A stretch of DNA of 64,000 nucleotides from Siphonodentalium dalli (taxonomy: Eukaryota; Mollusca; Scaphopoda; Gadilida; Siphonodentaliidae). Below are positions 20,112 through 33,091 of this stretch, one piece after another. Under the pieces are notes generated by a model that was not told where the DNA came from, did not search any database, and saw only the letters and a list, made by a program, of their open reading frames with translations. The stretch spans positions 32,552,987-32,616,986 of the forward strand of contig CP136063.1 in NCBI GenBank assembly GCA_032622095.1, written 5' to 3'. The position numbers and the translations under genes were made by a program. Each line of letters begins with the position of its first letter. Within the stretch, counting starts at the first letter, position 1.

Positions 20112-21900
20112 TTTAGCTCAACTTTACTTTGTAAAGTTTGAGCTATTTGCCATGGCTTGGTATCCGTCATCCGTGTGTGTGTGCGTGACTCGTCAACAAT
20201 TTCCTTTAGCACTGGCTACAGGTCGTACCTTTGGTCGGATCATTATGAAATTTGTCATGCCTGTTGACATGTAGATGGGAACGAGTCATTTTGGGGTCAT
20301 TTGGAAAAAAAACATGGCCGCAAGCGGCCATCTTGAATTTAAAATTTCAATCCATTAGCACAGGCTACAAGTCGTACTGTTCGTCTGATCATCATGAAAT
20401 TTGTCATCGATGTTGTAACTGGAGATGGGAACGAGTCATTTTGGGGTCGTTCGGCCAAAACATATGGCCGCCAGCAGCCATCTTGGATTTTACTCTTTGC
20501 ATGACTAAATCCTTCTGCATGGGCTACAGGTCGTAGCTTTGGTCGGATCTTCATGAAATTTGTCATCGATGTTAATATTGACATGTAGATGGGAACAAGC
20601 CATTTTGGGGTTATTGGGCCAAAAAACATGGCCGCCAGCGGCCATCTTGAATTAAAAATTTCAATCCATTAGCACGGGCTACAGGTAGTACTGTTTGTCT
20701 GATCATCATGAAAATTATCATTGATGTTAATATTGACATGTAGATGGGAACGAGTCATTTTGGGGTTGATTGGCCAAAAAACATGGCCACCAGCAGCCAT
20801 CTTGGATTTTACTCTGCATGACTAAATCCTTTGGCATGGGCTACAGGTCGTAGTACCTTTGGTTGGATCATTATGAGATTTGTCATGGCTGTTGACATTG
20901 ACATCTAGATGAGAACGAGTAATTTTTGTGTCATTCGGCAAAAAAACATGGCCGCCAGCGGCCATCTTGAATTTCAAATTTCAATCCATTAGCACGGACT
21001 ACAGGTCGTACTGTTCGTCTGATCATCATGAAATTTGTCATCGATGTTAACAATGACTTGTAGATGGGAACGAGTCATTTTGGGGTCATTGGGCCAAAAA
21101 ACATGGCCGGCAGCAGCCATCTTGGATTTTACTCTTTGCATGAATAAATCCTTGGGCACGGGCTACAGGTCCTACCTTTGGTCGGATCATTATGAAATAT
21201 GTCACAGCTGTTGACATTAATAAGTAGATGGGAACGAGTCATTTTGGGGCCATTCGGCAAAAAAACATGGCCGCCAGTGGCCATCTTGGATTTAAAAATT
21301 TAATCCATTGGCACGGGCTACAGGTCATACTGTTCTTCTGATCATCATGAAATTTGTCGTGGGTGTTAATATTGACATGTAGATGGGAACGAGTCATTTT
21401 GGGGTCTTTCGGCCAAAAAACATGTCCGCCAGTAGCCAACTTGGATTTTACTCTTTGCATGACTAAATACTTTGGCACGGGCTACAGGTCGTAGCTTTGG
21501 TCGGATCATCATGAAATTAGTCATGGATGTTAACAATGATATGTAGATGGGAACGAGTCATTTTGGGGTCATTCAGCCAAAAAACATGGCCGCCAGCAGC
21601 CATCTTGGAATTTACTCTTTACATGACTAAATTATTTGACACAGGCTACAGGTCATATGATCTTTTGTCGGATCATCATGAAATTTGTGATGGTTGTTAA
21701 TGACATGTAGATGGGAATTTAAGTCATTTTGTGGTCATTCGGTAAAAAAAACATGGCTGCCAGCGGCCATCTTGGATTTCACTCTTTGCATAACTAGGCC
21801 TTTCAACTTTCCACATTCCTAATCACTCCATTGACATTATGACATAACACATGAAATTATTCCCTTTCCAAGTTGAGCTTCAGTGTCATTGTCACTTTTA
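20112..21900. mobile_element. Tandem-core element 2 (about 160-bp units)
   Basis: Same 5' hairpin end (ttagctcaactttactttgt) and 3' end (caagttgagcttcagtgtca) as 9798-11771. About ten units of 150-165 bp carry gatgggaacgagtcatttt and a catggccgccagcggccat block. Units alternate between a 'gattttactctttgcatgac' and an 'aaaatttcaatccattagca' half, so the true period is probably dimeric. Confidence 0.8.
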
Positions 21901-24187: not shown

Positions 24188-24660
24188 TGTGCAGGGGTAG
24201 ACATGCTTGAGACCCCGTCACAGTTTAATTCACACCAGTTTCTCAGGTTCTGTTATTTTACGGAGTTCGAACTCATAGTCCTGATAGATGTACATGTTCT
24301 TGTAGATGGTGATTTATGAGCTGAGTTTAGAACCACATAATTGGTGGGAGGGGTTCTGGTTCTGACCCCCCCCCCCCCTAACTTTGGTATTCAGTGGAAA
24401 ATCTGTTGTAAGTAGACCAACAAATGGCCACATTTAGAATATTTCTAACTTTATGAACTTGAGGTACCAGTTACAAAATGATTCAATCATGTGAGATTGA
24501 AGCCACAGGAACATCCATGTTGGTCGGTTGATAAACGTTTATCGTCATTTCAGCCGCTATGCCATGTCACAACATCAGTTTTACTGGTTGAATGACCACA
24601 TGAATAGTTAATCGCCCCACCCCACCAAACGGGCACCCATGTTGTTCAGCTTTGGTTCGT
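24188..24660. other. 5' flank of the retroelement
   Basis: Non-coding, with a 14-C tract near 24367. No LTR, primer-binding site or reverse transcriptase coding was seen here. The retroelement therefore begins abruptly at about 24655-24690. Confidence 0.5.
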
Positions 24661-26039
24661 TAATTAAGCTAGCTTATGTTCATATTATCAAACAAATGCA
24701 ATCAACAAATATACCCGAAAAATTAGCAAAAACCTTTATTCTCAAAGATGGTATCCTACACTATATATCAATATATAATGACATACCTAAATTACGAATA
24801 TATATAACGGACAAAATAGCACAAGAAGTTATATCCCAATATCACAATCTCGGCCATAGAGCGGTACAATCGCTATACGCGACCATACGAAACAGATATT
24901 ACACACCTCAATTGTTTGCAAAAATTGTCACATACATAAACAATTGTCATACATGCCGACAACGAAATGCTTATAATCCAAAAATCCCGCTTCAACCAGT
25001 CACTGCCCCATCAAGGCCAGGACAACTCATAGCTATCGATCTTATGGGACCATTTTCCCCCAAAACACAGTCAGGAAATAGATTTATCTTAACTATTATT
25101 GATCAATTTTCATTACACACTTTAGCATACGCATTACCTAACAAAATGGTGGATACAATTTTAGAAAGATTGAATTCAGAGTATTTCACTTTATTTGGAT
25201 CAGTTGAAGGCATATTAACTGATAATGGGTCCGAGTTTGCAAACTCTACCTTCACTGAATTTTGTAAATATTACCATATCAATCACCGCCTCACCTCGTT
25301 CTACTCACCCCAAAGTAATGGGAAAAGTGAACGCTCACATAGAAGTCTAGCATCAATCATTTCAACAATCACCCAAGCAAATGTAGAAAATTGGGACCTA
25401 TATCTAAATTATGCATCACAAGCAATGAACTTCTATTGTTCCAGTGTACATACACATTCACCATTTTTTCTAACTTTTTTTAGAGAACCACAGATAAGCA
25501 TAGACCGAATTTTAACACACAGAGAAAAGTATTTAGGAGAGGATTTTTTAGCCACCACGCTTCAAAATCAACACATTATTTTTAAAACTACAAAATCTCT
25601 TCTCGAAACAGCCTCTCGCGACCACAAACAGAACAAAGGTGGATCTATTCCAACCTTTAAAATAGGCCAATCCGTCTATTACAAAATCCACCAACCAAAT
25701 CACAAATTTTCATTTAAATATGAGCCGTTTTGGCATATCTTGAAACAAACAGGCCCCATATCTTACATATTAAGATATGACCTATCTGCTAAATTAACAA
25801 AATCACATGCTAAACACATCAAACCATCCCCCGTTGATTGGCCTACACCTCAAATTCCCAATCACTTAAAAAATAAACGACATAATCGATTTGCATTTCC
25901 ACCGAGTGAAGCCAGTGTCGATAATAATAGCTCTCAATCCACATTGGAATCAGACGATGACCTCAAAACAACAGCAATTAAGCGCGCTCAACTTGAGCGC
26001 TCAAACACAAGACGACAGTTCTTCAATACCATTGGCTGA
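24639..26039 (+). CDS. Retroelement integrase (3' part of pol)
   Basis: The frame is open for 466 codons. The ATG at 24639 is probably not the native start, because element homology appears to begin around residue 20-30 and the rest of pol is missing upstream. An HHCC zinc-binding domain is visible (H69, H73, C103, C106), followed by a catalytic core with D134, D195 (TDNGSEF) and E231 (NGKSER). The D195-E231 spacing is the canonical DX35E. A GP..Y-type C-terminal module sits near residues 371-377. The last 60 residues are polar and no chromodomain is apparent. The core motifs and the PSRPGQLIAIDLMGP block fit Ty3/Gypsy integrases, which insert the cDNA into host DNA. All catalytic residues are present; the missing upstream pol makes the copy defective. 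Confidence 0.9.
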   Translation: MLFSFGSLIKLAYVHIIKQMQSTNIPEKLAKTFILKDGILHYISIYNDIPKLRIYITDKIAQEVISQYHNLGHRAVQSLYATIRNRYYTPQLFAKIVTYINNCHTCRQRNAYNPKIPLQPVTAPSRPGQLIAIDLMGPFSPKTQSGNRFILTIIDQFSLHTLAYALPNKMVDTILERLNSEYFTLFGSVEGILTDNGSEFANSTFTEFCKYYHINHRLTSFYSPQSNGKSERSHRSLASIISTITQANVENWDLYLNYASQAMNFYCSSVHTHSPFFLTFFREPQISIDRILTHREKYLGEDFLATTLQNQHIIFKTTKSLLETASRDHKQNKGGSIPTFKIGQSVYYKIHQPNHKFSFKYEPFWHILKQTGPISYILRYDLSAKLTKSHAKHIKPSPVDWPTPQIPNHLKNKRHNRFAFPPSEASVDNNSSQSTLESDDDLKTTAIKRAQLERSNTRRQFFNTIG

Positions 26040-26400
26040 ATTAGCCAACAGACTCATGGCTTCGAAACATTTTAATAAAACAGACAGCCAATCACCCCCG
26101 GATTTATCACCCAGCGACCAATCTAAGCCCCAAACACAGGAACCAAATATCATAAAACACAAATTAATTACGCAAAATTCTTATAGTACGACGCCAGACA
26201 CAAAATCTGATCGCGCAGATAACAAACGCGGCCGGCATCGTAAATTATATTCACCATACGCCAAACACACGCCTAAAGATTCATCGTTTTCTAATTCCTT
26301 CCAATATACATCACCCGACAGCCGTTCGACAAATTGGTCAAACGAAAGTACGGAAACATATGATTTATATCAGATGACAACTGATATCGAACATTCATAG
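25957..26400 (+). CDS. Overlapping hydrophilic ORF after integrase, function unknown
   Basis: An ORF in the +1 frame relative to integrase overlaps its 3' end. It is open from 25891; the ATG at 25957 (reading MTSKQQQL) gives about 147 codons and an 83-bp overlap with integrase. The product is rich in S, T, P, D and N, lacks hydrophobic segments and looks disordered, with a basic patch (NKRGRHRK). It could be a separate accessory protein or a C-terminal pol extension reached by frameshifting. I do not recognise a domain. Confidence 0.45.
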   Translation: MTSKQQQLSALNLSAQTQDDSSSIPLAELANRLMASKHFNKTDSQSPPDLSPSDQSKPQTQEPNIIKHKLITQNSYSTTPDTKSDRADNKRGRHRKLYSPYAKHTPKDSSFSNSFQYTSPDSRSTNWSNESTETYDLYQMTTDIEHS

Positions 26401-26894: not shown

Positions 26895-27690
26895 ACACTA
26901 TATATTATACAGTAGGTTATACAATAATCACGGCATATTTCCCTCAATATCACTATCCCCTCCTGCCAAACAACGCTCTTTATCATAAGAACGATTGGTA
27001 CAGAAACCACGGCATATTATCTCTCAATGTAGACACCACCACCGCCACAACGCCACTATAATTATATTATATAGTAGGTGATACAATCATCACGGCATAT
27101 TTCCCTCAATATCACTACCCCCTCCTGCCAAACAACGCTCTTTATCATAAGAACGATTGGTACAGAAACCACGGCATATTATCCCCCAATGTAGACACCC
27201 CCCACCCACCACCGACACAAGACACTATAATAATATTATATAGTAGGTGATACAATAATCACCGCATATTTCCCTCAATATCACTACCCCCCTCCTGCCA
27301 AACAACGCTCTTTATCATAAGAACGATTGGTACAGAAACCACGGCATATTATCTCTCAATGTAGACACACCCCACCCACCACCGCCACAACGCCACTATA
27401 ATTATATTATATAGTAGGTGATACAATCATCACGGCATATTTCCCTCAATATCACTACCCCCTCCTGCCAAACAACGCTCTTTATCATAAGAACGATTGG
27501 TACAGAAACCACGGCATATTATCTCTCAATGTAGACACCCCCACCCACCACCGCCACAACGCCACTATAATTATATTATATAGTAGGTGATACAATCATC
27601 ACGGCATATTTCCCTCAATATCACTTCCCCTAATACTGCCAAATAACGTTCTTTATCACAGAACGATTGGTACAGAAACCACGACATTCC
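26895..27690. repeat. 170-bp tandem array inside the retroelement
   Basis: About 4.7 copies. The landmark caacgctctttatcataaga starts near 26970, 27133, 27303 and 27473, with a decayed copy near 27643 (spacing about 162-170 bp). Each unit also holds accacggcatattat and tatatagtaggtgatacaat. Unit-to-unit identity is high except in the outermost copies, consistent with recent expansion. Confidence 0.85.
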
Positions 27691-28121
27691 CACCATCATC
27701 ACTGATTTCCCACCACACATCTCACATACATTTACCGACATTATTTGAAGCAAACGTATAACACTCTTTACTATAGAGCGTATATTATATCAACCCCGGC
27801 ATTTCTATAACTAAAACCAAATTTATTTGAACGAACAAACAAACGCTCTTCATTCTAAAACTTAGATAACCCAATCAATAACAGTATTGAACTCTGTAAT
27901 AATTCTTGGCAGCGGTCTAATAATATATTTATCTCTTTACATTTCAACCAATCTTAGACTATAATTAAATAATCTTTGGCGATTTAGCACGTTTACAAAA
28001 GTTACTCTTTGTAGCTCAACCAATATTAACACCTTTGGGGCATTACCACGATTACAACAACAACAACAAAAAAATTACATTTCTTTTTCACTGAATTTAT
28101 CAGCAAGATGTTATTTCTACA
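27691..28121. other. Interior spacer, possible 3' region of the first antisense gene
   Basis: No plus-strand frame. TTTATT at 27822-27827 reads AATAAA on the minus strand, about 440 bp beyond the antisense stop at 28265. It could be a poly(A) signal but is not conclusive. Further aacgctctt fragments of the 170-bp unit occur near 27842. Confidence 0.3.
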
Positions 28122-28264: not shown

Positions 28265-28540
28265 TTATAACACTCTCCGATGTTGACTCCATATGTCCAC
28301 TATCTGCTGCCTTTCATCTATGATCTCCAGCCGGAGATTTATCACCTTGTGGCATCTTTCTAACTCAGACACGGTACTAAAATACCGTGCCCAATCTATA
28401 CTGGTCCCTCCGGCAAGGCACACAGCAACTATAACATCATGAAATGCCAGTATGTGATCCACATACTGCATTGTTACCTCATATTGACTAGTTTCTAACA
28501 CAGCAACCTCAGCCTCCAAAAATCGCAAGTAATCAGACAT
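28265..28540 (-). CDS. Antisense accessory ORF A of the retroelement, unknown function
   Basis: Minus-strand ORF, antisense to the retroelement, between integrase and envelope. An upstream in-frame ATG exists at 28582, but a TATATAAG box at 28585-28592 would start transcription near 28555. The first usable ATG is then 28540 (MSDYLRFLEAE), giving 91 residues. The protein is predicted largely helical, with a charged C-terminal helix containing ERC-x4-NLR-x2-I-x2-ER. The same motif with the same spacing ends ORF B at 30247-30552, so the two appear to be duplicated genes. No known domain was recognised. Antisense genes are rare in Gypsy elements; the paralogy plus promoter placement argue that it is real. 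Confidence 0.6.
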   Translation of the reverse strand: MSDYLRFLEAEVAVLETSQYEVTMQYVDHILAFHDVIVAVCLAGGTSIDWARYFSTVSELERCHKVINLRLEIIDERQQIVDIWSQHRRVL

Positions 28541-28584
28541 AATGAAAATTAAGTCAGAAATAACACTTGTCGATATTCCCACAC

Positions 28585-28592
28585 CTTATATA
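28585..28592 (-). promoter_or_regulatory. Minus-strand TATA box of antisense ORF A
   Basis: Reads TATATAAG on the minus strand, 45 bp before the chosen ATG at 28540. This matches the expected TATA to start-site distance plus a very short leader, and mirrors the layout at ORF B. Confidence 0.5.
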
Positions 28593-29186
28593 CTCATCTC
28601 ATATTGGCAGATAGCGTCCGTATCGAATCGAGACGCTGTGCCAAACCAAGCAAGCACTCTCGAAGATTCCCGAGGGACATGCTAGGCACTATCTATCTCA
28701 AATAGACCCACACGGTAATATATATTACAAACCCCTGTTCCCGCTAACAGCGAACCAGCTCTCAAGCGATATCTCTTCGATACATCTAAACATAATATCC
28801 AAAGATAAATAAACACACTAAACATCATCTCATAATCAGATATAACTCAATGCTGGCAAGTCCAGTGTGCATCGGTGCACCATGCACACAGGGCTAAAAC
28901 TTCCTTCCCTCAAACAACAAAAATAAAATTAATACAATAAAAATATGTTACACAAGTATCATATCAATAGATAGGAATATTTATACATAAACAAATATTA
29001 CCCAGCCAATTTATCTGCCTCATAAACATAAAACTATCCATAAATATTCATTAAACCCAAATAACCCAAATCAAGCGACCTACACAAACCAATAAATATG
29101 ACAAGAACACCGATAGGTTAACCTTCCACTTCCACAACACATACACCAGACCCCTCCCCCCACACACCACGTATCTAGTGAGATGT
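28593..29186. other. Interior spacer upstream of antisense ORF A
   Basis: No gene seen. It would contain upstream promoter sequence for the antisense ORF. A plus/minus pair gcgtccg...cgagacgc near 28615-28632 makes a weak hairpin. Confidence 0.35.
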
Positions 29187-29738
29187 AAATCACAATATAT
29201 CTCCCAACATGACCATATCGTATATGTACCACCCCCCCAACTGCCCACAATACCCTAATTCACATATACATGTGCAGAGCTAAAATGAGCCTGAACAACA
29301 TGTATGTGAAAATCACAATAAATCTCCCAACACGACCATATCGTACATGTACCACCCCCCCCCCCCCCAACTGCCCACAACACCCTAATTCACATATACA
29401 TGTGCAGAGCTAAAATGAGCCTGAACAACATGTATGTGAAAATCACAATATATCTCCCAACATGACCATATCGTATATGTACCACCCCCCCCCCCCCCCC
29501 AACTGCCCACAATACCCTAATTCACACATACATGTGCAGAGCTAAAATGAGCCTGAACAACATGTATGTGGAAATCACAATAAATCTCCCAACACGACCA
29601 TATCGTACATGTACCCCCCCCCCCCCAACTGCCCACAATACCCTAAATCACATATACATGTGCAGAGCTAAAATGAGCCTCAATAACATGTATGTGCAAA
29701 TCACACTATATCTCCCAACACGACGATATCGTATACAT

Positions 29739-29780
<42 letters not shown>

Positions 29781-29781
29781 A
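29187..29781. repeat. 130-bp tandem array with expanding poly(C) tracts
   Basis: About 4.6 units with the landmark tgtgcagagctaaaatgagc at 29271, 29401, 29533 and 29659. Every unit ends gaccatatcgtatatgtacc followed by C runs of 7, 14, 16, 13 and finally 41 (29740-29780). The plus-strand frame at 29532-29807 merely translates the repeat. The minus strand would carry long G runs that could form quadruplexes. Confidence 0.85.
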
Positions 29782-30246
29782 CCGCCAAGATAACCAGAGC
29801 CGTGTGACAATGCGCGATCAAATATTATCATTACAATATAGATAGAACTACTATTCCATGCGTCAATTGCACTCCCCTAATACTATACAATCAACAAATA
29901 TTTCCGCCAATAGTCATGTCAAATATAGCAATAAGAACCTATATATACCAGTACACAATACGCATTTATTCATATGCCTTTTGATATCCATATTGACATG
30001 ACTGTTGGTATACCTACACCATATGACACATACATTTTTTAAATAATACAGCAATACTACTCGTCATTCACATTCAGATGTCCATGTGATGTTTTCAATG
30101 AAACCAATCTTCATTAGCACGATGTAACCCACGTTAAATTATATAGGCACAAACAGCTATCAAAGATTGGGCTCATCTTTCTTCTTCACTCCTCCTGCCA
30201 AACCTCCTCAAATCTCCCCCATCAGCCGGCCCAACTCAACTCCGTC
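29782..30246. other. Interior spacer, possible 3' region of antisense ORF B
   Basis: AT-rich. TTTATT at 29965-29970 reads AATAAA on the minus strand, 280 bp past the stop at 30247. It is the plausible poly(A) signal for ORF B. Confidence 0.35.
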
Positions 30247-30552
30247 TTACCAGTCAGTCTGTTCTTCCGACGACAGATCTATCAACCTTCTCCTCTCTTC
30301 CCTAATCTGCTTCCTCAGATTTAAAATGAGGTAACACCTCTCATTTTCCTCTAGCCACAACGTACACAGATATCGATCGCTCTTGGATGATACCCCCGTC
30401 CGGGCGTGCTCATTTCCCCGCTCAAATTGATCGACTATCTGATCATTCACGTACGTCAGATAGATCGAATCGACGATCACCCCAAAATACCCGAGACCAG
30501 ACGCCTTCGCATTTCTTAACTTACACTCTAACTCACTTAAAAGTTGACTCAT
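30247..30552 (-). CDS. Antisense accessory ORF B of the retroelement, unknown function
   Basis: Minus-strand ORF that ends 262 bp before the envelope frame begins and is divergent from it. The longest frame starts at 30603, but TATAAAAG at 30607-30614 makes that ATG upstream of the expected transcription start. The ATG at 30552 (MSQLLSELECK) gives 101 residues. Like ORF A it opens MSxxLxxLE and closes with ERC-x4-NLR-x2-I-x2-ER-x4-D, about 11 of 27 identical without gaps, preceded by an RY..T block in both. It is acidic-basic mixed, helical, and has no signal peptide or membrane segment. Function is unknown. Such a product could in principle regulate the element or the host, but nothing in the sequence shows which. 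Confidence 0.65.
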   Translation of the reverse strand: MSQLLSELECKLRNAKASGLGYFGVIVDSIYLTYVNDQIVDQFERGNEHARTGVSSKSDRYLCTLWLEENERCYLILNLRKQIREERRRLIDLSSEEQTDW

Positions 30553-30606
30553 AACTGCAAAGATTGAAAGACAGGCCCGTAATATTTTCCAGCCATCATA
30601 CAAATG

Positions 30607-30614
30607 CTTTTATA
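30607..30614 (-). promoter_or_regulatory. Minus-strand TATA box of antisense ORF B
   Basis: TATAAAAG on the minus strand, 55 bp before the ATG at 30552. Combined with CCAAT and CRE-like sites further upstream it makes a complete-looking RNA polymerase II promoter. Confidence 0.6.
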
Positions 30615-30668: not shown

Positions 30669-30700
30669 ATTGGTATCCACACTGGCATCGCGTGACGTCA
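30669..30700 (-). promoter_or_regulatory. CCAAT box and CRE-like palindrome between ORF B and envelope
   Basis: CCAAT on the minus strand at 30669-30673, about 55 bp upstream of the ORF B TATA box. TGACGTCA, the full CRE palindrome, is at 30693-30700. The CRE is symmetrical and also lies about 105 bp upstream of a plus-strand catataag (30805-30812) before the envelope ORF, so the block may serve both directions. Confidence 0.45.
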
Positions 30701-30887
30701 TTTTTCGTCGATTTCTGGGGGTACCCAGATACACAGTAAACTGAGACACACATTACAACCTACACCGGTCGAAAAATCTCATCGATTAATCAAACCAGTT
30801 AACCCATATAAGCCATGCCCACGCGAATCTATCTTTGTAATCAGATACCGGCTAACCCGCTAATACACACCTATATTTTTACATATA

Positions 30888-30902
30888 GGGGTGCGAGCGA
30901 TA
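30888..30902 (+). promoter_or_regulatory. Candidate splice acceptor before the envelope ATG
   Basis: ctatatttttacatatag ends in AG at 30888, preceded by a T-rich run, 13 bp before the ATG at 30902. Env-bearing Gypsy elements usually express env from a spliced RNA, so this would fit. Alternatively catataag at 30805-30812 could be a TATA box giving a start near 30835. Either way the ATG at 30902, not 30815, would be first in the message. Confidence 0.4.
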
Positions 30903-33091
30903 TGAAGCCCACAGAAAACTTCGTTAAAGCGACCCTCTTCATACTTATCATCGGCTTTCAAACTAGTGACACTATGTTAACTCGACAGAACATGTTATTT
31001 TTGCATCACCGGCAAATTGCTGTCTCAAATGAAAATTGGGATCTCAGTTTTCTCATCGAACTCACACCATATTATTCCTACATAACAAGACTTGCTAGCG
31101 ACATAAGGATGGCCCAAAATAAACTCAATAGCATTTGTGCCACGTTTCATCAAAGCACATATCACCATAACAAACCTCCATTCAGGAACGAGACAAATAA
31201 CATTAACTTTAATCTCATCAACATTTTGACAGATTTACAAACTGAATTAGCCGCGGCCCTCACGGAAACAAAACAAATCCAATATGAGTATCATAATTAT
31301 TATCAACTCCATAATACCAAAAGACTCAAAAAAGCAATATTACCAGTAATCAGCGATATCGCCAAATTTTTATTTGGCACACCTTCAATGTCAGATATTA
31401 CACATGTAGAAGATAACATACGAACCCTCTACCAAAACCAAAAAAAAATCCAACACGATACTCAAACCGCTTATTCTATCATGAATATCACACGCGTCAT
31501 TTCAAACGAAAATCGCCAACGAGTCAACACATTATCAACAACAATATCCAATATTCAAGCCACACTTCGAAAAGAAACACATCGAACTCAAAAACACGTA
31601 CATACAATTGAAATATTCACAATCATCAACGCTAAGTTTCTAGTAATATTACATGAAATACAACAAAATGTTATCCAAGCAAAATTATATTTGCGACATC
31701 TTAAAGTTCAAATTGCCTCTCTAATTAACCACCGATTAATACCGGAGATCATAAGCCCAATACATTTAAAACACGCACTTGACAGCATAACGAAATTACT
31801 TCCAGCTCATTTGAAGTTACCATTCCCCATAGAATCGGGGATTGCAAAATATTACCAACATTCGAACACACAAACCATACTCACAGACAGCAAACTAATC
31901 ATTACCATAACAATTTATTTACGCGATATCAGAATGCAGTTTGACATATTCCGCGCTATACCATTTTTTTATCCATTAGACCCCCGAGACCCAAAACTCA
32001 GACACAACAATAAATATACAGTTGCCCGAATCGATATTACTCATAATTATCTGCTATTATCTCCCGACCGATCCAAATATACCACTATTGGTGCCAATCA
32101 CCCGTGTATTTTAAATAAATTACCATATTGTAAAATTCAAAAAATTTCAATAGCAGCATCACATAATCACAACTGCCTACTAAACATATTCACCAATGAT
32201 ACAAAAAATACCGCCACAAATTGCCCTATAGCCATATACCCTCAGTATAATTTACCGTCCGCTATTAAGCTGGCGGCATGTACATGGCTTATAACAACCA
32301 CGAAAGCTCATACATTTACAGTAAACTGTCATCACAATCTCTTAAGAAAACGACCGTATAGAATCACAATTTTACCCCCCATCGCAACGATAACTTTACC
32401 ACCAAGGTGCATAGCTACATCAGCCAGTATCAAACTAATTGCATTCACAACTTTGAACTCATCAAACATCACCATCAAGACACAAATAACCCAATTACAA
32501 TCAACTATTGAATTACATAAATTGCCACAATGGAAGCCATTATTTTCCCAAATTCATAACTTGCCCCCTCAAGTATCGATTCCAAACAAGTTACCCCCCA
32601 TAAAGCAACTATCATTATATGATTTTCTGCAAACAGTCACTTCCCTGCAACCCATCAAACAAAAGAAAAAACAGGATTATTACCAAATTATCATTCCCGC
32701 GGTCATTACGTTTGTATTAATTTTACTGATTGCCATCTCAAGTCGCAAATACATTATTCAGTGTATCACGAAAATTTCCCAATACCAGACTCAACGCAAT
32801 CACAACACGCGACGAATTAAAATCGCAAAGCGACGAAATAAACTTAACCAAATGATAAAGGGAACTGATATGCAACTTCGTCACAGACTAACCCCACCAA
32901 TACCCAATGAAGCTACGAAAGATATTCATTTGTCTCCAGCTAAGGAACCTCAAATACAAATCACACAAGAAGATTTGACATTTCCCAAAAAACACCCGCG
33001 AGATGTTGATGCAGAATCATCCACATTACGACCTATGAAAATAATGAAAACTCACGCGTCCATCCATAACCCACCACTTAATCTATATTGA
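30902..33091 (+). CDS. F-type (baculovirus F/errantivirus-like) envelope protein
   Basis: The frame is open for 758 codons from 30815. I prefer the ATG at 30902 (residue 30; 729 residues remain) because a signal-peptide-like stretch (ATLFILIIGF) follows it directly. Numbering from 30815: a basic cluster KRLKK at 169-173 precedes a hydrophobic segment containing LFGT (186-189), the layout of the cleavage site and fusion peptide in F proteins. Helical heptad-like sequence follows (about 195-300), then a Cys-bearing region (431-532), a transmembrane helix at about 624-642, and a basic cytoplasmic tail of about 115 residues, longer than usual. The basic cluster ends in Lys rather than the Arg preferred by furin, so processing is uncertain. 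Family: class I fusion glycoproteins of the Baculo_F group, carried by errantiviruses. No stop or frameshift interrupts it. Confidence 0.8.
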   Translation: MKPTENFVKATLFILIIGFQTSDTMLTRQNMLFLHHRQIAVSNENWDLSFLIELTPYYSYITRLASDIRMAQNKLNSICATFHQSTYHHNKPPFRNETNNINFNLINILTDLQTELAAALTETKQIQYEYHNYYQLHNTKRLKKAILPVISDIAKFLFGTPSMSDITHVEDNIRTLYQNQKKIQHDTQTAYSIMNITRVISNENRQRVNTLSTTISNIQATLRKETHRTQKHVHTIEIFTIINAKFLVILHEIQQNVIQAKLYLRHLKVQIASLINHRLIPEIISPIHLKHALDSITKLLPAHLKLPFPIESGIAKYYQHSNTQTILTDSKLIITITIYLRDIRMQFDIFRAIPFFYPLDPRDPKLRHNNKYTVARIDITHNYLLLSPDRSKYTTIGANHPCILNKLPYCKIQKISIAASHNHNCLLNIFTNDTKNTATNCPIAIYPQYNLPSAIKLAACTWLITTTKAHTFTVNCHHNLLRKRPYRITILPPIATITLPPRCIATSASIKLIAFTTLNSSNITIKTQITQLQSTIELHKLPQWKPLFSQIHNLPPQVSIPNKLPPIKQLSLYDFLQTVTSLQPIKQKKKQDYYQIIIPAVITFVLILLIAISSRKYIIQCITKISQYQTQRNHNTRRIKIAKRRNKLNQMIKGTDMQLRHRLTPPIPNEATKDIHLSPAKEPQIQITQEDLTFPKKHPRDVDAESSTLRPMKIMKTHASIHNPPLNLY

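Follow-up and report, generated by a model that had tools for sequence, protein, structure and literature searches.

Genes and transcripts that run antisense to long terminal repeat (LTR) retroelements have been reported from several hosts. In maize, gene23 of the element Grande lies downstream of pol, antisense to gag-pol, and its transcription is driven by its own promoter (PMC7264820, PMC11963269); a mussel Steamer-like element contains an antisense open reading frame (ORF) of 67 amino acids (aa), for which antisense RNA was detected and a promoter in the 3′ LTR suggested (PMC10974842); and micropia of Drosophila hydei has an antisense promoter and two antisense RNAs without protein-coding capacity (PMC7264820), all as described in the parts of these papers available to us. 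Here we analyze a stretch of 64,000 nucleotides of the scaphopod mollusc Siphonodentalium dalli (contig CP136063.1, positions 32,552,987 to 32,616,986; hereafter the window), in which two homologous minus-strand genes, A and B, lie between pol and an envelope-like gene (env) of a plus-strand retroelement. We consider it probable that A and B are genuine protein-coding accessory genes placed antisense between pol and env, old duplicates of each other with TATA promoters of their own.

A preliminary description of the window had placed paralogous minus-strand ORFs at 28265-28540 and 30247-30552, and both are present:

28265..28540, minus strand: antisense gene A, 91 aa, predicted three-helix protein (ORF, ATG to stop)
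30247..30552, minus strand: antisense gene B, 101 aa, paralogue of A (ORF, ATG to stop)

The products share the start motif noted in that description (MSDYLRFLE in A, MSQLLSELE in B), and the C-terminal motif ERC-x4-NLR-x2-I-x2-ER was found in both. Their paralogy is borne out by three comparisons, each showing a likeness beyond chance: two-sequence BLASTP gave 37% over 46 aa (E 1.6e-8), the local alignment score of 80 compares with a maximum of 49 in 2000 shuffles, and profile-profile comparison (hhalign) returned a probability of 96.3% and an E of 1.9e-9 over 86 columns, nearly the full length. AlphaFold2 placed helices at residues 3-17, 24-42 and 47-90 of A (mean pLDDT 87, the five models ranging from 63 to 87, with a shallow alignment of 11 sequences) and at residues 3-17, 29-52 and 57-99 of B (mean pLDDT 71, with a shallow alignment of 6 sequences), and the same three-helix layout is predicted for both. 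Detectable homology and this common predicted layout place the two genes in one paralogue family. Neither A nor B had a significant match in Pfam, and neither bZIP nor TRP28 (PF04195) matched at E ≤ 1; a search of the Protein Data Bank (PDB) with both gave nothing significant (best E 0.062, TNFAIP2). Viral contigs scanned with A and with the env product (Env) yielded no relative, and A, B and Env had none in the protein collection searched.

Copies were sought in the genome (2.23 Gb, nine contigs). The search with A gave at least 152 matches, with an in-frame stop in 14 of those listed, and it scored 150 of 250 candidates, so that its counts are lower bounds; the search with B gave 150 matches, many of the weakest being copies of A. 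Frames were counted in 80 loci, among them the window copy itself (L001) and two that overlap each other (L005 and L021); a tblastn match was taken as near-full-length if it began at residue 1 and stopped no more than 5 residues short of the end. The frames are kept open in these other copies, as the preliminary description had expected of real genes: 81 of the 83 near-full-length A sequences are open over 88 aa or more, and 26 of the 27 for B over 101 aa. Of 40 loci picked by their A match (L041-L080), 25 have a full-length B, 2 a broken one and 13 none, and 38 have an env match. On the side away from env, integrase or the C-terminal part of pol was seen in 11 of 20 loci (L021-L040). Most copies thus carry a conserved antisense ORF downstream of pol, as in the plant aORF-3R type.

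The differences between copies indicate purifying selection on both proteins. The ratio of nonsynonymous to synonymous change (dN/dS, from NG86 counts) in A is 0.23, 0.20, 0.064, 0.056 and 0.034 over rising distance classes (255, 79, 102, 633 and 79 pairs; the 54 distinct sequences form 1431 pairs, of which 1148 were kept and the others dropped, mainly for saturated dS), and in B it is 0.57, 0.38, 0.10 and 0.067 (77, 14, 77 and 42 pairs, together every one of the 210 that 21 distinct sequences form). The dN/dS test proposed in the preliminary description therefore comes out at about 0.03-0.10 between lineages, where the differences are mostly synonymous. A fall of dN/dS with divergence is expected where copies drift after insertion while the replicating lineages stay constrained. 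A synonymous excess was seen in all ten lineage comparisons (binomial p 1.5e-2 to 4.5e-18; the comparisons share sequences and are non-independent), and mean pairwise differences at the first, second and third codon positions are 0.076, 0.051 and 0.272 for A (9 sequences) and 0.040, 0.034 and 0.145 for B (6 sequences). In a six-frame control over A, made on one pair of copies, the antisense-gene frame alone was free of internal stops, with a ratio of nonsynonymous to synonymous differences (pN/pS) of 0.10; four of the other frames had values of 1.7-2.5, and one opposite-strand frame had 0.26 but contained 5 and 6 stops.

Each gene is also accompanied by promoter-like and polyadenylation-like signals:

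28585..28592, minus strand: TATA box of A, TATATAAG, beginning 52 bp before the ATG
30607..30614, minus strand: TATA box of B, TATAAAAG, beginning 62 bp before the ATG
27822..27827, minus strand: AATAAA 437 nt past the stop of A, a possible poly(A) signal
29965..29970, minus strand: AATAAA 276 nt past the stop of B, a likely poly(A) signal
30693..30700, no strand: TGACGTCA palindrome, CRE-like, upstream of B, between B and env

The preliminary description had given each gene its own TATA box 45-55 bp before the ATG. Both genes do have one, and that of A, at 52 bp, lies within this range, but that of B, at 62 bp, falls outside it. A TATAWA motif occurs between -80 and -35 in 79 of 83 A sequences (TATATAAG at -52 in 70) and in all 27 B sequences (at -62 or -63 in 26, at -78 in one), against a background of 5-10% of 35-nt windows in these sequences. 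The region just 3′ of the B box is the most variable in the alignment, and the box is nonetheless kept. With the two genes of a second element family described below, a TATA box precedes all four genes of this kind, and the position of the boxes directly upstream of A and B suggests internal promoters. At the other end, AATAAA stands 260-280 nt past the stop in 27 of 27 B copies (a single 20-nt bin) and at +195 in the second-family B of locus L081; the signal of A is less regular: of 43 copies that extend 600 nt downstream, 17 have it at +440 to +459, and in the others it is scattered. The TGACGTCA palindrome, which we take to be CRE-like, is present in 25 of 27 B copies. It was considered as a promoter element common to both families and rejected, being kept in the main family and not found before the second-family B.

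The arrangement recurs in this second family. It was reached through locus L081, to which weak B matches (35-37%) pointed. This locus has a B-type ORF 39% identical to B in alignment and, on the same minus strand ~1.2 kb past the B-type stop, an A-type ORF that shares 27% identity with A; on the plus strand beyond the B-type ORF lies an Env homologue that is 42.5% identical to residues 39-414 of the window Env (E 5e-94). The A-type and B-type genes thus have the same order and strand as A and B, and their TATA boxes lie at -64 (A-type) and -51 (B-type). Pairwise alignment scores are 124 for B with B-type, 80 for A with B, 68 for A with A-type, 63 for A-type with B-type, 50 for A with B-type and 39 for B with A-type. 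The score of 124 dates the duplication, on the B side, before the split of the families, while the A side leaves the date unsettled because A scores higher with B than with A-type. The common order, strand and TATA boxes favour a single old duplication, and one old duplication before the families split appears most likely from these sequences. Purifying selection on second-family B was evident in 6 of 6 comparisons between two diverged subgroups (p 6.7e-4 to 5.6e-6); for example, L081 and L083 differ at 14 of 63 synonymous and 8 of 237 nonsynonymous sites (p 1.8e-5). Within subgroups, one of four pairs gave p 0.04 and the other three, differing by one base, were uninformative.

Two further observations concern these genes. 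Opposite B, both families have an open plus-strand frame of 74 aa (window 30330-30554, L081 1559-1783 and L082 76-300, all plus strand); by count the frames have the same relative register, and their products, compared by look and unaligned, appear unrelated. On contig C3, A and B pieces alternate over several kb in L021 (C3:53418000-53426000), as though a unit of A and B had undergone tandem duplication within the locus, and three loci at 50-57 Mb (L022, L023 and L024) each have a tandem pair of A-type genes separated by ~500-580 bp. The second A copy of L022 is without a TATA box and is joined to the apparent 3′ flank of another A, an arrangement that is possibly a picture of how the A-B pair first arose.

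The element that carries A and B in the window has the following further parts:

24612..26039, plus strand: integrase part of pol (Pfam rve and Integrase_H2C2; PFV and Ty3 structure matches)
25870..26400, plus strand: C-terminal part of pol, in a different frame in the window copy; it trails integrase in several other copies
26901..27687, no strand: 170-bp tandem repeat array, 4.7 copies (repeat search)
29187..29756, no strand: 130-bp tandem repeat array, 4.5 copies (repeat search)
30815..33091, plus strand: env-like ORF, 758 aa (envelope-type layout by eye; second-family homologue 42.5% identical, residues 39-414)

The integrase frame matched Pfam rve (E 5e-14) and Integrase_H2C2 (E 1e-13), so that the H2C2 zinc domain and rve core of a retroviral-type integrase, as expected of Ty3/Gypsy, are both present. 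In a search of solved structures the same part matched PFV integrase (E 6e-21) ahead of Ty3 Gag-Pol (E 4e-15), and the integrase match therefore does not separate Gypsy from retroviruses; judged by its sequence, the element is likely Ty3/Gypsy (Metaviridae). The integrase frame is broken near its end in the window copy and continues through in some others. No frame resembling reverse transcriptase (RT) was noticed among the ORFs listed upstream in the window copy, inspected by eye without an RT profile search, and no LTR pair was found, blastn of the two flanks of this copy giving only a 72-nt match at 83%. On these three grounds we regard the window copy as incomplete. Env had no Pfam match below E 1, and Baculo_F matched neither the window Env nor the second-family Env piece at E ≤ 10 in a scan whose filters discard weak matches. 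A basic cleavage-like site followed by a hydrophobic stretch gives Env what we presume to be a resemblance to F-type Env. The location of the ORFs between integrase and envelope of a plus-strand element, as first described, thus holds, the integrase being identified by Pfam and Env by its layout, by eye; the term errantivirus-like, applied to the element in the same description, is not supported, with no Baculo_F match for Env and no RT seen in the window. A different tandem array trails each antisense gene in the gene's own direction, with 170-bp units after A and 130-bp units after B. A further block of direct repeats with a spacing of ~150-165 nt lies upstream of the element, at window 20194-21686, and Rfam and tRNA scans of the window were empty.

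Loss of B has been propagated. Fourteen B-less loci were examined, and ten have one common junction, from window 30167 to 30603 with ~20 nt of other sequence between; one of the remaining four lies near that junction, one has another junction, one matches on the env side only and one has no match. The common junction indicates that a subfamily was amplified without B while retaining A and env, and B is thus either dispensable or provided in trans.

The comparison of copies revealed a second puzzle, in that A and B are far more diverged at third positions than the rest of the element. In ten L077-like loci aligned with the window, the coding sequence of A is 83-86% identical, compared with 94-99% in the 100 bp upstream of A, 91-95% in the 100 bp downstream, 95-98% in integrase and 96-97% in env where covered; a divergence equal to that of A is seen only in the repeat array or in the 100 bp before B. 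Exceptions are L049 and loci like it, where A (93%) is not below some flanks, and L027, where the downstream flank (71%) is below A (74%). The synonymous divergence (dS) of A is 0.79-1.14 in nine loci, against 0.07-0.26 in integrase and 0.11-0.15 in env. It is 0.28-0.31 against 0.07-0.12 in env for the closer loci L049 and L070, and 0.13-0.17 against 0.09-0.11 in env for L046 and L067; in three further loci the dS of A is saturated. Over 40 loci, dS exceeds that of env in 516 of 780 pairs for A and in 286 of 351 for B, and the excess sits in pairs of different type.

To compare types we used the 26 loci with all parts, which give 186 pairs of different A type and 117 of the same type. Between types, divergence is 0.283 at third positions of A and 0.205 at those of B, compared with 0.051 in the noncoding DNA between A and B, 0.125 in the 100 bp upstream of B and 0.015 at third positions of env; the third positions of A and B have thus diverged 4-6 times as much as the intergenic noncoding DNA and 14-19 times as much as env. 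Within types the corresponding values are 0.008 (A third), 0.010 (B third), 0.016 (between A and B), 0.045 (upstream of B) and 0.007 (env third). In Mantel tests, third-position distances of A and B were correlated with r 0.982 (26 loci; no permutation of 2000 reached this value), the intervening DNA followed with r 0.85, and env gave r 0.27 (55 of 2000 permutations). Env has thus been largely exchanged between types, and the A-B block has been inherited together.

Simple causes of this mismatch were considered and put aside. A locally raised mutation rate is not supported, young pairs differing by 0.008 at third positions of A and by 0.016 in the noncoding DNA between A and B. An editing-type one-way bias does not fit the synonymous third-position changes of A, in which both transitions are mixed and transversions are fewer. 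Recombination is real, as the shuffled env and one B copy with mixed promoter and coding sequence attest, but as the only cause it does not fit the concordance of A and B across the little-diverged DNA that separates them. Possible causes are constraint on the flanks, selection for nucleotide divergence, or recurrent recombination beyond the two genes. We think it rather doubtful that A and B form a co-adapted antisense pair kept in several old matched types by diversifying or balancing selection, the types holding together while env is freely exchanged and the sequence being driven apart and the protein hardly; if true, such a matched-type pair would be a first example, in an animal retroelement, of an antisense-encoded module for self-recognition (immunity) or silencing escape.

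From the open frames, their homology, the purifying selection on them, the promoter-like elements and the recurrence of the arrangement in a second family, we infer that A and B are transcribed, translated and functional. Each gene would be transcribed from its own internal TATA promoter, independently of the LTR, to give short mRNAs (~0.65 kb for B, from TATA box to AATAAA). The products would be small α-helical proteins that may homo- or heterodimerise via the long C-terminal helix. Made while the LTR is quiet or in step with it, they may tune element expression, particle formation or re-infection in trans. We put such trans-acting regulation, the likeliest of the functions considered and one suggested by analogy and layout, at not quite an even chance; the clean loss of B in one amplified subfamily fits a product supplied in trans by other copies. 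The accessory genes of mobile elements often counter host defence, and suppression by A and B of host silencing, through PIWI-interacting RNA (piRNA) or RNA interference (RNAi), or of another host restriction factor is a tentative possibility on the unlikely side. Promoters of their own would permit expression ahead of LTR activity, and the strong third-position divergence between types could reflect escape from sequence-specific silencing; the protein, however, is conserved (dN/dS 0.03-0.10 between lineages), and the searches made found no homology to known suppressors. Self/non-self immunity, in which matched A-B types would block same-type re-infection or transposition and so limit copy number, seems to us improbable. 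The near-perfect concordance of A and B types beside a shuffled env looks as if the genes must match, but over 1.7 kb it may be plain linkage, as the stretch between the genes follows too, and the protein differences between types are modest.

The remaining alternatives concern whether the proteins matter at all and where the genes came from. Antisense frames that face conserved DNA can stay open by chance, the plus-strand frame opposite B is itself open, and one opposite-strand frame over A has a pN/pS of 0.26, though with 5-6 stops. That A and B are chance ORFs or by-products of sense-strand constraint is nevertheless extremely improbable: across A the antisense-gene frame alone is open in both sequences compared, with mostly synonymous changes, the third positions vary far beyond most flanking noncoding DNA, so that the region is not conserved at the DNA level, and the arrangement recurs in the second family. 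The earlier judgement that chance ORFs are unlikely is thus upheld by the codon pattern, the six-frame control and the second family alike. It is very unlikely that the antisense transcripts act chiefly as RNA, as double-stranded RNA (dsRNA) for silencing or by interference with the sense transcript, the peptides being secondary. There is precedent in the noncoding antisense RNAs of Drosophila micropia and in the dsRNA regulation discussed for plant elements, according to the available part of one paper (PMC7264820), but strong amino-acid conservation beside freely changing third positions shows selection on protein. Large DNA viruses commonly have genes on both strands, each with its own promoter. 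Capture of env and the antisense genes together from such a virus, an origin compatible with the other readings, we hold to be unlikely: in the window B and env point away from each other across ~260 bp, A and B are each preceded by a TATA box, the arrangement is common to two families, and LTR elements are reported to have acquired env from DNA viruses (PMC5408684, PMC12440569, as far as the accessible text goes), but A and Env have no relative in the viral contigs scanned and A, B and Env none in the protein collection.

Several points weigh against our preferred reading of A and B as conserved accessory genes. The copies were gathered by protein similarity, which favours intact ones, and 28 partial matches, eight of them truncated by the locus end, were omitted from the frame count. 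The likeness of A to the second-family A-type is weak (direct tblastn covers only 31 aa, E 0.001, and the score of 68 is below the 80 of A with B). A lesion is present in 3 of 5 second-family B copies read, the other two being intact over the stretch read, and a subfamily can amplify without B. Second-family A has a net positive charge and the other three proteins (A, B and second-family B) a net negative one, so that a common DNA-binding role is not evident. Protein, PDB and Pfam searches gave no homologue of known function, and the regulatory role is built on analogy and layout.

How, then, does this pair compare with described systems? Among the closest are the antisense ORFs of plant Ty3/Gypsy elements (Grande gene23, RIRE2 of rice, Retand/TRP28), which resemble A and B in lying antisense, 3′ of pol, in most copies; tandem arrays also occupy that region in about half of recently active Retand elements, as they do in the window element (PMC7264820, PMC11963269, in the parts available). 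In contrast to the window element, Retand is from a plant host (Silene), and no Env-like sense ORF is recognised in it in those parts; A and B differ from the plant ORFs in being two homologous genes between pol and env of an Env-bearing element and in having no TRP28 (PF04195) match. HBZ of HTLV-1, APH-3, APH-4 and ASP of HIV-1 are, like A and B, small antisense accessory proteins of env-bearing retroelements; their promoters lie in the 3′ LTR, according to the accessible sections (PMC10186651), whereas A and B have internal TATA boxes. HBZ is a bZIP protein, which A and B, with no bZIP match at E ≤ 1, are not by Pfam. The HTLV-type antisense gene is, moreover, single.

Among animal retrotransposons, the mussel Steamer-like element is likewise an LTR retrotransposon of an aquatic invertebrate with an antisense ORF, and an antisense ORF in a mollusc element is thus not new per se; it differs in having a single sense gag-pol ORF, and neither duplication nor conservation of the antisense ORF is described in the available text (PMC10974842). 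Micropia shares an antisense promoter within an LTR element and differs in that its RNAs are noncoding (PMC7264820, in part). LTR elements of bdelloid rotifers resemble the window element in having an extra gene downstream of pol (captured ORF3: env, GDSL or DEDDy), but these have enzymatic or env functions, and the accessible portion of that report describes no antisense genes and uses 'antisense' or 'reverse orientation' only for small RNAs (PMC5408684). The insect errantivirus gypsy has pol followed by an env-like gene, as here, but the window Env has no Baculo_F match. We know of no antisense genes in errantiviruses. The Troyka lineage, considered for comparison, was set aside as being without env in the source text available.

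No conserved duplicated antisense pair in an env-bearing animal LTR element was recognised in the open-access literature searched, and such a pair appears to be new. The earlier suggestion that the system may be undescribed therefore holds for the duplicated pair, and not for a mollusc antisense ORF as such, a single one being known (PMC10974842, as available). The third-position mismatch between A and B and the rest of the element adds a second, separate puzzle for retroelement evolution. Dozens of copies, types that can be told apart and a subfamily that naturally lacks B make the function of antisense genes in animal retroelements testable outside HTLV. Retroelement antisense genes have mostly been reported singly, and the functions of those in plants are unknown; here there is a homologous pair under purifying selection.

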